The translations under genes and the position numbers were made by a program. A stretch of 64,000 nt of DNA from Myxococcota bacterium (GTDB lineage Bacteria; Myxococcota; XYA12-FULL-58-9; JALHOP01), in contig JALHOP010000004.1 of NCBI GenBank assembly GCA_022842935.1, positions 248,001 through 312,000 of the forward strand, given 5' to 3'. Positions 30,567 to 37,315 of this stretch are shown piece by piece; position 1 is the first letter of the stretch, and each line of letters opens with the position of its first letter. The notes under the pieces were generated by a model that was given only the letters and a program-made list of their open reading frames with translations, was not told the DNA's origin and made no database searches.

Positions 30567-31862
30567 ATGGCCCCACGATCCGGTCAAACGCGCGCAACCA
30601 AAGCGCGAGTCGCGACGGCGAAAACCGCGATGCAGAGACTCGAGCGCTGGATGCCTGCGGCCGTGCGAATGGTCATCGACACGCTCGCGAAGAACGGCGC
30701 GCGGGGGGTGCTCGTCGGGGGCGGCGTGCGCGATGCTTTTTTGGGTCGAGCGGCGCCCGATTGGGACGTGGCGACCGACGCGCCTCCTGACAGGGTTGCG
30801 AGCTTCTTTCGCCGCGTCGCGCGCACGGGTGAGCAGCACGGCACCATCATGGTGCTGACCGGCGACGTACCCGTCGAGGTCACGACCTTTCGCGGTGAAG
30901 GCCCCTATCTCGACGGTCGACGGCCGAGCCATGTCGTATTCCTGACCGAGCTCGAAGCCGACCTCGCGCGCCGCGACCTCACCATCAACGCGATGGCCTA
31001 CGACGTCATCGAGCGTCGCATCGTCGACCCGTTCGAGGGCATCGCCGATCTGCGGACGGCGCGGGTCCGTTGCGTGGGCAGGGCCGCCGAGCGCTTTGGA
31101 GAGGACGGTCTGCGCCCGTTGCGGGCGGCCCGATTCGCCGCGACGCTTGGCTTTGACGTGGACGCCGAGACAACCGAGGCGATGCGAAGCGCGCTTGCCA
31201 CGTTCGAGCGCGTGGCCTGGGAGCGCAAGCGCGTCGAGATGGAGAAGCTACTGGGGCAGGGTGTGCGGCTCGCGACGCCGGTCGCGCTGCTCGAGAGCTC
31301 AGGGATGCTCGGCATCATCGCTCCCGAGCTCGTTGGCGTCGCTGCCGACTGCGACAAGTTGCTCGGACTGCCGCGGGACCCTTGGTTGCGCTTCGCGGGG
31401 TGGGCGCACCTGCGCAGGGTCGACGCTGGCACCTCGGGCGCCATTGCGGCGCGCTGGCGTGCCTCGAAGCAAGACGGTCGACGGGTCGAGCAGGCAGTCG
31501 CCGCGCTCACGCATCTCGGTACGGCATCACCGCCACGGGGTGCCGACCTCCGCCGCTGGGTTGCAAATCATGGCTTTCCTGCCGCGAGCGATGCCGCCGA
31601 GGTTGCGCGGGTTCTGGCCTCGCCGCTCTACCAACGATTCCCAGCCGCGCTGCGGCGTTTGGCGGCGGCACGACCACCACTCGCCGTCGCCGATCTTGCC
31701 ATCAACGGTACGGACCTTGGTGGTCTCGGCTTTGCTGGGCCGGCCATCGGCGCGACCCTGAAAAAATTGCTGGGAGTGGTGCTCGAAAATCCTGGACACA
31801 ACGACCGCAGTACACTTCTCGCGGTCGCCAAAACGTTGTCCACAGCCCCCGACCCCACGTAA
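30567..31862 (+). CDS. class II tRNA nucleotidyltransferase / poly(A) polymerase family
   Basis: 431 residues from ATG 30567; ATG 30630 (MQRLERWMPAAV) is the main alternative. VLVGGGVRDAFLGRAAPDWDVATDAPPD has the GGxxRD loop and the DxD metal-binding aspartates of the head domain. VEVTTFRGEGPYLDGRRP, RDLTINAMAYDV and the neck motif GEDGLRPLRAARFAA are all characteristic. The enzyme adds CCA to tRNA 3' ends or poly(A) to RNA; telling the two apart needs structural comparison. No HD domain is present. A DnaA-box-like site lies inside the 3' end of the gene. Confidence 0.9.
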   Translation: MAPRSGQTRATKARVATAKTAMQRLERWMPAAVRMVIDTLAKNGARGVLVGGGVRDAFLGRAAPDWDVATDAPPDRVASFFRRVARTGEQHGTIMVLTGDVPVEVTTFRGEGPYLDGRRPSHVVFLTELEADLARRDLTINAMAYDVIERRIVDPFEGIADLRTARVRCVGRAAERFGEDGLRPLRAARFAATLGFDVDAETTEAMRSALATFERVAWERKRVEMEKLLGQGVRLATPVALLESSGMLGIIAPELVGVAADCDKLLGLPRDPWLRFAGWAHLRRVDAGTSGAIAARWRASKQDGRRVEQAVAALTHLGTASPPRGADLRRWVANHGFPAASDAAEVARVLASPLYQRFPAALRRLAAARPPLAVADLAINGTDLGGLGFAGPAIGATLKKLLGVVLENPGHNDRSTLLAVAKTLSTAPDPT

Positions 31863-32074
31863 ATCCGCGAAATTCGTATGTGACAACAGTGCGACTTTTG
31901 CCTTTTCTTGATCATCCTAACAACTCGCCACAAATCCTGATTGACTACATTTTTCAGGGCACTAGAAGAACTTTCGAGGCTCATAAAAGACCTCGACGAA
32001 AAGGTGTCATCTTGTGGGTGCTCGGGGATTTGCAGTTTCTGGGGTGTGGAAACCCTGTGAATAACTGTGGATGA
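31836..32074. other. AT-richer gap with DnaA-box-like sites
   Basis: The non-coding stretch 31863-32143 is the most AT-rich part of the window. TTGTCCACA (31836-31844, one mismatch), TGTGAATAA (32056-32064, an exact match to TTWTNCACA on the other strand) and TGTGGATGA (32066-32074, one mismatch) resemble DnaA boxes; TGTGGAAAC at 32045 is weaker. TTGACT near 31941 could be a -35 element. No gene is seen in it. A role in replication or DnaA titration is a hypothesis; no dnaA, dnaN or rpmH gene is nearby. Confidence 0.35.
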
Positions 32075-32143
32075 CCGAATGGCGTTGCGTGCTTCTCGCG
32101 CGCCGCGTTGACAGCAGGGATCCGCGACCACTACGGATCTCCC

Positions 32144-33160
32144 GTGGCGACAAGCATTTACCTCGACCATGCCGCGATTGCTCCGTTGCGGCCCGAAGCA
32201 GCCCGGGCGATCCGTGAGGCCGCAGCCCTCGGCGGCAACCCGTCGAGCCTTCACGCCATCGGTCGCGCGGCTCGCCAACTCATCGATGAGGCGGCCGATG
32301 TGATCCGCGATTTTACGAAGGCCGGAGGCGCGAGCGTCGCCTTCACCGGGAGCGGTGCCGAGGCGAACGTGCTCGGGGTGCTGGGTCTCGCGCGTGCGCA
32401 GCGCGCGGCCAACGGCCGGCGACGGATCCTCGTCGCTCCAGATGAGAGCCAAGAGGTCCAGGATGCGACTGCCCAGCTCGCCCGCGAAGGCTTCACGATT
32501 GAGTCGCTCGCCGAGGCCCTTTTGGGCGAAGACGTCGCGCTCATCGTCATGGCCCTCGACCAGGTCGGCAGCGGGCGCTTGAACGCGACCAGCCATGTCG
32601 CGCGTTGCGCCGAACGCATCGGCATTCCTCTTCATTGTGATGCGACCCGCGCCGCCGCGACGATGTCGGTCGACTTCCTGGGGAGCGGTGCGACGTCGCT
32701 CGCGCTGGCTTCCGAGACCCTGGGAGGTCCACAGGGGGCGGGCGCGCTCGTGACCTTGAAAGGGGCGGCCATGACCCCACTTTGGGAGGGCGGCGGCCAA
32801 GAGGGTGGGCTACGCAGCGGCTCGCAAGCGGTCCCTCTCATTGCTGGCTTTGCGGCGGCAGCGCGGGCCACTGCCTTGGCGACCATTCGACCCTTAGAGG
32901 CGAAAGCGCTCGACATGGTGTGGGCGGCGCTTGAAGCCGAGGTGCTCGGGGGGCCGCGCCGGCCAGGTGTTTCCTGCGCGGTGTTCGAGCCAGGGCGTGC
33001 CGACCAACTGGTCCGCCTCGCGGCCGACCGAGGCGTCATCCTGGGGCGCGTCGGTTGCGGGGTGCGTGCGTCGGCAGGTTGGAGCACCACCACCGAAGAG
33101 CTCGCGCGGGCCACGATCGCACTTGCCAGCTGCGCGCGAGATCTTCAGAAAGCCGCGTGA
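32144..33160 (+). CDS. NifS/IscS-like class V aminotransferase fold protein lacking the PLP lysine
   Basis: 338 residues from GTG 32144 (a TTG at 32108 is the longer option). IYLDHAAIAPLRPEA, GGNPSSLHAIGRAAR, VAFTGSGAEANVL and LWEGGGQEGGLRSGS align with the cysteine desulfurase family. At the place of the Schiff-base lysine (SxHKxxGPxG in IscS) the sequence is ASETLGGPQGAGAL, so His-Lys is replaced by Glu191-Thr192. The stacking His (vEHpsv in relatives) is also changed (APDESQEVQ), and DATQS has become DATRA. The loop carrying the persulfide Cys is much shortened, though a Cys remains in GRVGCGVRAS. The protein is probably not an active PLP desulfurase. It sits just before mnmA, the position of a dedicated sulfur donor in some bacteria. 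Confidence 0.9.
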   Translation: MATSIYLDHAAIAPLRPEAARAIREAAALGGNPSSLHAIGRAARQLIDEAADVIRDFTKAGGASVAFTGSGAEANVLGVLGLARAQRAANGRRRILVAPDESQEVQDATAQLAREGFTIESLAEALLGEDVALIVMALDQVGSGRLNATSHVARCAERIGIPLHCDATRAAATMSVDFLGSGATSLALASETLGGPQGAGALVTLKGAAMTPLWEGGGQEGGLRSGSQAVPLIAGFAAAARATALATIRPLEAKALDMVWAALEAEVLGGPRRPGVSCAVFEPGRADQLVRLAADRGVILGRVGCGVRASAGWSTTTEELARATIALASCARDLQKAA

Positions 33161-33181: not shown

Positions 33182-34273
33182 ATGCGTATCGTGGTTGCCA
33201 TGAGTGGCGGAGTCGACTCGTCGACCGTCGCGGGCCTCCTGGTGGAGGCTGGGCACGAGGTCATTGGCCTCGCAATGAAGACCCACGCCGAGGCTCCCAA
33301 GCACAACCGCGCGTGCTGCACTCCTGACGACATGCGCGACGCCCGACGTGTTGCAGATCATCTCGGCATCCCGTTCTACGTTTTGAATTACGCCGACCTT
33401 TTTCGCGACGTGGTGATCGCTCCGTTCGCCGAGGCGTATACGCAGGGACGCACGCCGAACCCTTGCATCGAGTGTAACGACAAGGTGAAGTTTCGCCCTC
33501 TCCTGGCGCGCGCGAAGCTCCTCGGCGCCGACAAGCTCGCTACGGGCCACTACGCGCGCATCGCGCCCGACACGCTGGCTCTTCGCCGCGGCGTCGACCC
33601 CAAGAAGGATCAGTCGTATTTCCTCTATCGGCTCGACCGCGAGCAGCTTGGCCAACTCGAGTTTCCTGTTGGCGGTATGCACAAGGACGAGGTCCGCGCT
33701 CATGCCGCGCGGCTTGGACTGCCGGTCGCCGAGAAGCGGGAGAGCCAGGAGATCTGCTTCGTGGGCGAGGCGGGCTACGCGGCGACGGTCGAGAGTATTG
33801 CCGGGCGCGGTGGACTCGCCGGCCAAATCGTTGGCGCCGACGGTAAATCGCTTGGTGCGCACGAGGGCGTGCACCATTTCACCTATGGCCAGCGACGGGG
33901 CTTGCGGATCGCGGCCGCCGAGCCGCTTTACGTGACGGAGATCGACGCGGCCTCGGGAACCGTACGTGTTGGTCCCCGCGAGCAGCTCGCGACCGAGACT
34001 GTGGTGGTCGAGGGTGTGCGGTGGACACAGCCTCCGCCCAGCGCGGCAGAGGTCGTTCTGGTGCAGCAGCGCTACCGGGAACCCCCCAAGGCTTGCCGCG
34101 TCGAGCCTCTGGACGCGAGCACGATTCGCCTGTGGTTCGTCGACAAGCAACCGCGTGGTGCTCCCGGGCAGGCCGCGGTCATCTATCGCGACGATACGGT
34201 GCTTGGTGGCGGCAGTATCGCAGCGGCTGTTCGCCCGTCCGCTGAAGCGGACACGATTCGAGCCACGCCGTGA
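33182..34273 (+). CDS. mnmA: tRNA-specific 2-thiouridylase MnmA
   Basis: 363 residues. VVAMSGGVDSSTVAGLL is the PP-loop that adenylates U34. NPCIECNDKVKF and SQEICFVGEA carry the two conserved catalytic cysteines. FYVLNYADLF and ATGHYARI are family segments, and the C-terminal beta-barrel (TYGQRRGLRI) is present. It thiolates the wobble uridine of Glu, Gln and Lys tRNAs using sulfur delivered by a cysteine desulfurase. The gene 21 bases upstream encodes a desulfurase-like protein without its active lysine. The stop overlaps the RNase III start (GTGA), beginning a run of four overlapping genes. Confidence 0.95.
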   Translation: MRIVVAMSGGVDSSTVAGLLVEAGHEVIGLAMKTHAEAPKHNRACCTPDDMRDARRVADHLGIPFYVLNYADLFRDVVIAPFAEAYTQGRTPNPCIECNDKVKFRPLLARAKLLGADKLATGHYARIAPDTLALRRGVDPKKDQSYFLYRLDREQLGQLEFPVGGMHKDEVRAHAARLGLPVAEKRESQEICFVGEAGYAATVESIAGRGGLAGQIVGADGKSLGAHEGVHHFTYGQRRGLRIAAAEPLYVTEIDAASGTVRVGPREQLATETVVVEGVRWTQPPPSAAEVVLVQQRYREPPKACRVEPLDASTIRLWFVDKQPRGAPGQAAVIYRDDTVLGGGSIAAAVRPSAEADTIRATP

Positions 34274-34965
34274 GCCTCGCCTTCCCCACGGCCGAGAAGC
34301 TCGAAGCTAATCTCGGTTACACGTTTCGAGACCGCGCTTTGCTTGCGCAGGCCCTCACGCACTCGACGTACGCCAACGAACATCCCAACGAAGGGCCGCC
34401 CAACGAGCGCCTCGAGTTTCTGGGTGACGCCGTGATCAATCTGCTGGCGGGGCGGTTGTTGTTCTTGCGCCTCAGCGACGAGTCTGAAGGCGAGCTGACG
34501 CGTCGGCGAGCGCAGGTCGTACGCCGCGAAGCGCTCGCGGAGATGGCTCAGAGTCTGGAACTGCCGTTGCACCTGCGCCTCGGGCACGGACAGAAGTCGA
34601 CTGGTGGCGTCACGGCGCGGGTGTTGGCCGACGCGTTCGAGGCTCTCGCCGCGGCTGTCTATCTCGATGGAGGCTATGCTGCGGTCGAGACGATCTTCAG
34701 CCGCTTGTTGGCCGACGCCATCGACCAAGCGGTCGGGCCCATCGATTTCAAAACGAAGCTCCAAGAGGAGTGCCACAAACACGGCAAGCCGGCGCCGGTT
34801 TACGAAGTGGTGGGAGTGAGCGGGCCCGACCACGCGCGAGAGTACAGCTGTCGTGTGCTCATCGATGGTGCCTGTTATGGTACGGGGAGCGCTTCGAGTA
34901 AGAAGGTCGCCGAGCAGTGCTGTGCCGAAGAGGCACTGGCCGCGCTCGAGGGAGGCCGTTCGTGA
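34270..34965 (+). CDS. rnc: ribonuclease III
   Basis: 231 residues from GTG 34270. NERLEFLGDAVINLLAGRLL is the RNase III signature with catalytic Glu and Asp residues; VLADAFEALAAAVYLDGGY has the second acidic cluster. The C-terminal dsRNA-binding domain begins at FKTKLQEECHKHGKPAP and ends with SSKKVAEQCCAEEALAAL. It cuts double-stranded RNA, including rRNA precursors. The stop overlaps the start of era (GTGA), a conserved rnc-era arrangement. Confidence 0.97.
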   Translation: MSLAFPTAEKLEANLGYTFRDRALLAQALTHSTYANEHPNEGPPNERLEFLGDAVINLLAGRLLFLRLSDESEGELTRRRAQVVRREALAEMAQSLELPLHLRLGHGQKSTGGVTARVLADAFEALAAAVYLDGGYAAVETIFSRLLADAIDQAVGPIDFKTKLQEECHKHGKPAPVYEVVGVSGPDHAREYSCRVLIDGACYGTGSASSKKVAEQCCAEEALAALEGGRS

Positions 34966-35897
34966 GCAAGCGCGTCAAGAAGAACCACAGAGCCGGCTTC
35001 GTCGCGCTGATCGGACGCCCGAACGTCGGAAAGTCGACGCTGGTCAATCGCCTCCTCGGTCAGAAGGTCAGTATCGTTACTCCGAAGCCACAGACGACGC
35101 GCACGCGCATTCAAGGCATCTTGACCTTGCCCGAAGCGCAGGTCGTGTTGGTCGATACGCCAGGGCTTGGCGGCGGCCAAGGCGCCCTGAAGACCGCCAT
35201 GCAACGCGTCGCGGGTGACGCGGCCGCGGATTCGGACGTCGCCTTGGTGCTCGTCGAGGTGCGTGGCGATACGCCCGAGATCACGGACGCCGATCACGCG
35301 GTGCTCAAAGAGGCACGCAAGTCGCGTGGTAGCATCGTTGCAGCGATCAACAAGGTCGATCTCATCAAGCGTAAGGACATCCTGTTGCCGTGGCTCGCCG
35401 CGCTCGGCCAGGAGCTTGGCGACGTGCCGTTGATTCCCATCTCCGCCCGCACCGGGGACGGTCTCGATATCCTGGTGGCCGAGTTGGTGAAGCGACTCCC
35501 GGAGAGCCCGCAGCTATTTCCGGAGGACGTCGTGACCGACCAAGCCGAGCGCGTGCTAGCCGCCGAGCTGGTGCGTGAACAACTGCTATTGCGGACCCGT
35601 GACGAGGTGCCCCACAGCGCCGCCGTGGTCATCGAACAGTTCGAAGACGAGCGCGACGCAAAGGGGCAGGGCCTTTGCCGGCTCGAGGGCCGCATCTACG
35701 TCGAGCGTGAGTCGCAGAAGGCGATCGTCGTCGGAAAGGGTGGGCACCAAATCAAAGAGGTATCCACAGCCGCGCGGAAAGCCATCGAAGAGATGCTTGG
35801 CTGCAAGGTGTTCCTGCGACTCACCGTCCACGTCGATCCCGATTGGACTGGAAACCCCAAAGGCGTGCAGCGACGCATGAGCGACCAGGGCCTATGA
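34962..35897 (+). CDS. era: GTPase Era
   Basis: 311 residues from GTG 34962, which has GGGAGG nine bases upstream and overlaps the rnc stop. Domains: a G1 GRPNVGKSTL, G3 DTPG, G4 NKVD and SA(R) at G5, then a C-terminal KH domain (KAIVVGKGGHQIKEVSTAARKAIE) and an RLTVHVDPDW ending. These are the full features of Era, which binds the 3' end of 16S rRNA and takes part in small-subunit maturation. Its stop overlaps the der start (ATGA). Confidence 0.97.
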   Translation: MSKRVKKNHRAGFVALIGRPNVGKSTLVNRLLGQKVSIVTPKPQTTRTRIQGILTLPEAQVVLVDTPGLGGGQGALKTAMQRVAGDAAADSDVALVLVEVRGDTPEITDADHAVLKEARKSRGSIVAAINKVDLIKRKDILLPWLAALGQELGDVPLIPISARTGDGLDILVAELVKRLPESPQLFPEDVVTDQAERVLAAELVREQLLLRTRDEVPHSAAVVIEQFEDERDAKGQGLCRLEGRIYVERESQKAIVVGKGGHQIKEVSTAARKAIEEMLGCKVFLRLTVHVDPDWTGNPKGVQRRMSDQGL

Positions 35898-37315
35898 GCG
35901 ACATCTCGATCCGAAGGCAGCTCCCGCTCATCGCGCTGGTCGGCAGACCCAACGTGGGCAAGTCGACGCTGTTCAACCGCCTGGTACGCAAGCGCATCGC
36001 ATTGGTCGACGACCAGCCTGGCGTCACGCGCGACCGCCTCTTCGGAGAAATCCGCTTCGACGGCAAGATCGCTCGGGTCGCCGACACCGGCGGACTCGAT
36101 GCCCAGGCTACCGATACGGTCATGATGGGAGTGCGCGGCCAGACGCGCGCGACAATCGACGAGGCCGACGTTGTGTTGCTGGTGCTCGACGCCCAGGTGG
36201 GGCTCACCGCTGCGGACCGCGAGGTCGCCGAGGTGCTGCGCAAGACCGGCAAGCTCAAGTTCGCCATCGTCAACAAGATCGATGTCGACGACCACAAGCC
36301 ACGCACCGCCGACTTCGCCGAGCTTGGCGTCGACCACATCTTTGGCGTGAGCGCCGAGCACGACCGTGGCACCGAGCCGCTGCTCGAAGCCGTCTTCGCC
36401 GTCATCGACGCGCCCAAAGAAGATGCCGTCACCGTCGATCAATCACCGATCGAGGTTACACCCGATGAGGGTGAAGACGAGTCGCCCGAGCCCTCCCGCA
36501 TCGAATGGCGAGGTGGCGCCATTCGCGTGGCCGTCATCGGGCGTCCGAACGCAGGCAAGAGCTCTCTCGTCAACCGATTGCTCGGCGAAGAACGACTCCT
36601 CGCCACCGATGTGCCTGGGACCACCCGCGACGCCATCGATGTCGCCATCGAGCATGACGGCACGCATTACGTGTTCGTAGACACCGCCGGCATGCGTCGC
36701 AAACGCTCGGTCGATGACAAGCTCGAGAAGTGGTCGGTCTCCGCGGCGGTACGCTCACTCGATAGCGCCGACGTCGCCTTGCTTTTGCTCGACAGTAGCC
36801 AGCAGCCCAGCGAGCAGGACGCCCGCATTGCGACCCTGGCGCACGAGCGCGGTAAGGGGCTCGTGATCGTCGCCAACAAGTGGGACCTACCGAAGGAAGA
36901 TGCATTCAAAAAAGACTACGACGCAGCGGTCATCCACGAAATGAAGTTCGCGACGTACGCAAGCATTTTGAAGGTGTCCGCCAAAACAGGCTGGAAAACC
37001 GACACGATCTTCCCCGCTGTGCTCGAGGCACAGCGCGAGCGGCATCGCCGCGTGACGACTGGAGAGCTCAATCGCTTCATGGCGGACGTGGTCGAGCGCA
37101 ATCCTCCGCCCATCCAGAACAGCCGTCGACCGCGCATCTACTTCGCTTCGCAACCACTCGTCCGCCCGCCAACGTTCATCTTCACCACCTCGAAGCCTGA
37201 CGACATCCATTTCTCGTATCAGCGCTTCCTGCAGAACCAGCTGCGCGAGCGCTACGGTTTTCATGGGACGCCGGTGTGGCTGAAGTTTCGCCGGAGCCGC
37301 AAAGAGCAGCGCTGA
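35894..37315 (+). CDS. der: GTPase Der (EngA)
   Basis: 473 residues from ATG 35894. Two tandem G domains are visible: GRPNVGKSTLFNRL with DTGG and NKID, and after an acidic linker (about 175-205) GRPNAGKSSLVNRLL with DTAG and NKWD. A C-terminal KH-like domain follows (RPRIYFASQPLVRPPTFIFT, QLRERYGFHGTPVWLKFR). Der is required for 50S assembly. It closes the mnmA-rnc-era-der operon and faces a minus-strand gene ten bases away. Confidence 0.97.
   Translation: MSDISIRRQLPLIALVGRPNVGKSTLFNRLVRKRIALVDDQPGVTRDRLFGEIRFDGKIARVADTGGLDAQATDTVMMGVRGQTRATIDEADVVLLVLDAQVGLTAADREVAEVLRKTGKLKFAIVNKIDVDDHKPRTADFAELGVDHIFGVSAEHDRGTEPLLEAVFAVIDAPKEDAVTVDQSPIEVTPDEGEDESPEPSRIEWRGGAIRVAVIGRPNAGKSSLVNRLLGEERLLATDVPGTTRDAIDVAIEHDGTHYVFVDTAGMRRKRSVDDKLEKWSVSAAVRSLDSADVALLLLDSSQQPSEQDARIATLAHERGKGLVIVANKWDLPKEDAFKKDYDAAVIHEMKFATYASILKVSAKTGWKTDTIFPAVLEAQRERHRRVTTGELNRFMADVVERNPPPIQNSRRPRIYFASQPLVRPPTFIFTTSKPDDIHFSYQRFLQNQLRERYGFHGTPVWLKFRRSRKEQR

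Follow-up and report, generated by a model that had tools for sequence, protein, structure and literature searches.

In the stretch of DNA analysed here (64,000 nucleotides, referred to as the window), positions 32144-33160 hold an uninterrupted frame whose product has the IscS/NifS fold and which lies directly 5' of mnmA, and the Schiff-base lysine of cysteine desulfurases is missing from that product. The locus raises the question of why a desulfurase-like protein without its catalytic residues should persist beside mnmA. It comprises the following genes:

32144-33160, + strand: pseudo-cysteine-desulfurase gene, 338 amino acids, GTG start (a TTG at 32108 is possible), supported by the open frame, the Aminotran_5 match, codon periodicity and the AF2 model
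33182-34273, + strand: mnmA of the C type (CC-CxxC-C, as RACC, NPCIEC and EICF), identified with Pfam and starting 21 nucleotides past the pseudo-desulfurase stop
34270-37315, + strand: rnc, era and der, a downstream operon conserved in the genomes G001, G003 and G004

Coding status of the gene

Pfam Aminotran_5 matches the 338-residue product end to end (52.9 bits against a cut-off of 21.5), which together with its predicted fold-type I structure places the window protein in the class V aminotransferase fold. The top NCBIfam models are NifS, DndA and IscS, all scoring far under their equivalog cut-offs (102 bits against 531 for NifS and 75 against 643 for IscS). GC content at the three codon positions is 0.75, 0.58 and 0.75, a coding-like pattern that extends over the whole frame and is alike in the neighbouring genes. 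A preliminary description of this DNA had called the frame intact, and it is indeed open over 338 codons, with coding-type codon GC and no stop.

A promoter scan gave no signal above chance. The window has six DnaA-box-like 9-mers with one mismatch from TTATCCACA, three of which cluster within 250 bp at 31836-32074. This region takes in the last part of cca and intergenic DNA with 50% GC, and has no clear GC-skew switch.

Active-site residues lost and retained

The window protein was aligned with 48 relatives, giving 58 columns conserved at 85% or more, of which it retains 37. With the active-site columns grouped after the data had been seen, and the residues of E. coli IscS (PMC9978102) mapped by homology, the losses amount to 16 of the 20 columns of the active site and Cys loop versus 5 of the 38 other conserved columns (Fisher p = 7.5e-7). 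The key positions are:

32447-32449, + strand: stacking His replaced by Ser (AGC), residue 102; His in 98% of the 48 relatives
32558-32569, + strand: ANNE motif replaced by DQVG, residues 139-142, from the alignment
32648-32650, + strand: Gln of DATQ replaced by Arg (CGC), residue 169, with Asp166 kept, from alignment and codon
32714-32719, + strand: Schiff-base His-Lys replaced by Glu-Thr (GAG ACC), residues 191-192; Lys in 48 of 48 relatives, His at 191 in most
32789-32821, + strand: loop GGGQEGGLRSG kept, residues 216-226, present in the window protein, in G001 and in the G003 remnant (as GGGQQDGIRPG)
33056-33058, + strand: Cys305 at the persulfide position kept, with the loop after it deleted; Cys invariant in the alignment of relatives

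T227 is also changed, to Ser. Retained are D166 (the Asp that pairs with the PLP nitrogen), E101, E73, C305 and R308 (the substrate-Arg position). The window protein thus lacks three features of an active IscS or NifS, namely the Schiff-base Lys (T192), the stacking His (S102) and the Gln of DATQ (R169). The alignment shows that the residues required for PLP chemistry have been lost, and the protein should not be expected to carry out PLP-dependent desulfuration. The 48-relative alignment agrees with the preliminary description on the His-Lys, stacking His and Gln positions. The shortened persulfide-Cys loop reported there amounts to about 20 missing residues, a statement to be corrected in that Cys305 and R308 themselves are kept.

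The codons at positions 102, 169, 191 and 192 are each at least two base changes away from any functional codon, so that at least eight changes in total have accumulated in a stop-free frame. In a neutral simulation of these four catalytic codons, run without indels, no run combined a stop-free frame with two changes in each of the four. Together with the codon periodicity and the predicted fold, this suggests that the frame and the fold-bearing residues were kept after catalysis had been lost.

Predicted structure

An AF2 model of the window protein, built with 29 relatives and dependent on an alignment in which most proteins are active, has the full fold (pLDDT 88.8, pTM 0.88). Its closest folds in the PDB are M. 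tuberculosis IscS, H. pylori NifS and A. fulgidus IscS, and its TM-score against IscS is about 0.9. The shorter homolog in G003, described below, gives a partly confident fold, with a pLDDT of 74.8 in the best of five models and 57-63 in the rest. The model of the remnant consists of three strands with flanking helices. These strands have their counterparts at 64-68, 185-189 and 200-204 in the window model, and a PDB search with the remnant model retrieves IscS structures. We take these three strands to be sheet neighbours in fold type I, where the helices and GGGQ loop kept in the remnant presumably sit near the dimer interface.

Relatives in the order and phylum

The comparison included seven other genomes of the same order, none of them of the same family or genus. 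A search of 195 genomes across the phylum gave, as outstanding full-length members, only the proteins of G001 and the window genome; the G003 remnant makes a third member. The G001 orthologue is 37-39% identical to the window protein and is its sister in the tree (support 91/88). Gene order is the same in both genomes: a divergent outer-membrane gene, the desulfurase, mnmA, rnc, era and der. The G001 protein retains the Lys, both His, the Gln, the Asp and the Cys, and its ANNE motif is changed. Its Cys loop is already shortened while the Lys is present, so the shortening is probably older than the loss of Lys. In synteny and residues G001 keeps the ancestral form, and from these we infer that its protein is active.

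In G003 (SYDY01000102.1, L048:375-857), an in-frame remnant of 150-160 amino acids lies between the same neighbours as the window gene. BLASTP with the window protein gives E = 2e-8 and 8e-7, and the segments that the remnant keeps correspond to residues 13-76 and about 183-243; the central part of the PLP domain is missing, as is the C-terminal domain. The remnant starts some 375 bases from a contig end, where an assembly fault is conceivable. It overlaps the start of mnmA by ATGA, an overlap that the desulfurase frame of G001 has as well. No gaps are needed to align the three proteins between the His-Lys region and the GGGQ loop, and at the His-Lys the sequences are SAHKFGG in G001, ASETLGG in the window and DAEALGA in G003; the remnant therefore has no Lys and has the His-to-Glu change in common with the window protein. 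In G004, cca lies immediately 5' of mnmA and the desulfurase is absent. The order thus contains an intact (G001), a dead (window), a trimmed (G003) and an absent (G004) state of the same gene, and the position beside mnmA is conserved in G001 and, for the remnant, in G003.

The common His-to-Glu change suggests a single inactivation before the families of the window genome and G003 split. A tree of MnmA, Rnc, Era and Der does not separate the branching order of G000, G001, G003 and G004, and because of this the change may instead have arisen convergently in the window and G003 lineages.

The preliminary description had proposed looking across the phylum for orthologues with the same substitutions, and had taken a close relative with SxHK as a sign of recent decay or error. 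The G003 remnant has the His-to-Glu change and no Lys, and the G001 protein keeps its catalytic residues. G001 does keep SxHK, yet recent decay or error does not follow from this. Recent decay as the only cause was rejected, since no catalytic codon is fewer than two base changes from a functional one and the G003 remnant has the same His-to-Glu change.

In the family tree, the branch of the window protein measures 2.84 substitutions per site against a median of 0.44. Pairs of mnmA and a desulfurase gene occur elsewhere in the phylum too, in G010 and G011. The mnmA-adjacent desulfurase of G011 (L094:2589-3614) has a complete set of catalytic residues and a branch of 3.38; fast evolution beside mnmA is thus not confined to the dead copy.

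MnmA and other suppliers of sulfur

The CC-CxxC-C motif defines the C-type class of MnmA (PMC11784392); the T. thermophilus enzyme of this class depends on a [4Fe-4S] cluster (PMC8584467, PMC11784392). The window MnmA has the motif, as do most of the relatives examined, whether or not a desulfurase gene lies next to theirs, and by this motif the window MnmA is of the [4Fe-4S] class. Parts of the motif are missing from three MnmA relatives, L100 (G006), L101 (G024) and L103 (G009), through lack of the CC pair or, in L100, a gap at the last Cys; these proteins may have a different MnmA chemistry or be paralogues.

The window genome, whose assembly is 97% complete, encodes SufS with an adjoining SufE and, separately, a lone canonical IscS with SAHK; neither TusA nor, by NifU_N match, an IscU/SufU-type protein was found in it. 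With an MnmA of the C type and both SufS-SufE and a canonical IscS present, MnmA could be supplied with its cluster and its sulfur even though its neighbour is not catalytic. This lends indirect support to the earlier suggestion that MnmA here may use another donor.

Comparison with known systems

The best PDB match to the window protein in both sequence and fold is M. tuberculosis IscS (Rv3025c; PDB 4isy), which has the same gene pairing: its gene shares an operon with trmU/mnmA, and the protein is reported to associate physically with TrmU (PMC10848736). The window protein differs in lacking the His-Lys and the complete Cys loop, both of which are present in M. tuberculosis IscS. In Bacillus subtilis, YrvO supplies MnmA directly, without Tus carriers (PMC11784392). 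The window pair is like YrvO-MnmA in gene position, a likeness drawn from gene position and published description; YrvO is an active desulfurase, whereas the window protein lacks the residues for activity.

Desulfurase folds without the Schiff-base Lys are known from A. fulgidus IscS (Lys to Asp; PDB 4eb5, 4hvk) and Methanosarcina acetivorans IscS1. The A. fulgidus protein has no desulfurase activity and is proposed to ligate the IscU-bound cluster through a Cys (PMC7585200). The window protein resembles this type in its IscS fold, lost Lys and kept Cys. Unlike the two archaeal proteins, it has also lost the His, Gln, Asn and loop; they belong with IscU, whereas the window gene belongs with mnmA in a genome where no IscU-type protein was found. 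Among the papers searched, none matched the phrase "inactive cysteine desulfurase". The window MnmA, a predicted cluster enzyme, carries the same CC-CxxC-C as the Thermus thermophilus enzyme, and the neighbouring pseudo-desulfurase is the new element of the pair.

A proposed non-catalytic partner of MnmA

The reading we favour, which we hold to be about as probable as all others together, is that the window gene encodes a lineage-restricted pseudo-cysteine-desulfurase that descends from an MnmA partner resembling M. tuberculosis IscS and persists in a non-catalytic role. The ancestor in the order would have been a desulfurase of the IscS/YrvO type, encoded directly 5' of mnmA and dedicated to MnmA. 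The PLP site would have been lost in the window lineage, probably before its split from G003, without loss of the overall fold, the frame, the GGGQ loop or the N-terminal helices. The dead protein most likely persists as a partner that binds the [4Fe-4S]-class MnmA and stabilises or positions it, to which sulfur would come as cluster, sulfide or persulfide from SufS-SufE or from the separate canonical IscS. In the window protein Cys305 could provide a ligand or a relay thiol, in line with the proposal made for A. fulgidus IscS. The G003 remnant lacks the domain that bears Cys305, so a role common to both forms is more likely to be protein binding than sulfur chemistry.

An origin as an MnmA partner is favoured by the nearest fold, M. 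tuberculosis IscS, which binds TrmU/MnmA, and by the intact syntenic orthologue in G001. The same synteny, with that precedent, supports the earlier placing of a pseudoenzyme at the site of a dedicated MnmA donor; the preliminary interpretation is thus supported in part, but its appeal to recent decay or error is not. Retention for a non-catalytic role is favoured because the losses cluster in the active site, the frame is intact despite at least eight changes, and coding periodicity persists. The in-frame G003 remnant with its His-to-Glu change and partly confident fold, the C-type MnmA, and the SufS, SufE and canonical IscS encoded elsewhere also speak for this reading. The very long branch indicates that constraint on the window protein is weak, and the role is evidently dispensable in the order, since little of the protein is left in G003 and none in G004.

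A more specific proposal, which we put forward tentatively, is that the dead IscS family serves as a non-catalytic subunit or chaperone of the [4Fe-4S]-class MnmA in one order. The mini-protein of G003, with its three strands and flanking helices taken as the dimer core, would then show that the MnmA-binding part is separable from the desulfurase. A heterodimer of the window protein with the canonical IscS was also considered.

Alternative explanations

It is rather unlikely, though still a serious competitor, that the gene is being lost slowly and has no function, the C-type MnmA being served by general sulfur systems while a dispensable dedicated desulfurase vanishes stepwise. The series from intact G001 through the dead window copy and trimmed G003 to absent G004 is what such a course would leave, and the accelerated branch and the other sulfur suppliers of the window genome fit it too. 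However, there are no stops or frameshifts even though each catalytic codon has changed at least twice, the structural columns are retained, and coding remnants persist in two lineages at family distance.

We consider it improbable that the frame stays open for translational coupling, with ribosomes that end the upstream frame starting mnmA and the product hardly mattering. The ATGA overlaps in G001 and G003 are suited to such coupling, but in the window a 21-nucleotide gap containing an AGGGA motif (read from the window sequence) precedes mnmA, and folding residues are kept beyond the needs of an open frame. Slightly less probable again is a sulfur relay in which Cys305 accepts a persulfide, made by the canonical IscS or by SufS/SufE, and hands it on to MnmA in place of the missing TusA. 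In its favour, Cys305 and Arg308 are retained and no TusA was found. Against it, the window protein has lost the mobile loop that surrounds the Cys, a Cys-bearing domain is absent from the G003 remnant, and a [4Fe-4S] MnmA does not have to work through a persulfide relay. A sequencing or assembly artefact, conceivable in an assembly of 46 contigs, can be dismissed given the many separate multi-base changes in an unbroken frame.

Implications

Pseudo-IscS proteins as a kind are already known. New in the favoured case of a non-catalytic MnmA partner are the intact orthologue, the trimmed remnant and the cluster-class MnmA alongside. Both the route of sulfur to MnmA and the choice between a persulfide and a [4Fe-4S] cluster mechanism are disputed (PMC11784392). 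Nature offers a test of these questions in a lineage where the C-type MnmA persists but its dedicated donor has become inactive, then shortened, then lost; it suggests that MnmA of this class can work without a catalytically active partner. The active, dead and mini partner proteins of this order form a set with which binding may be separated from sulfur donation.
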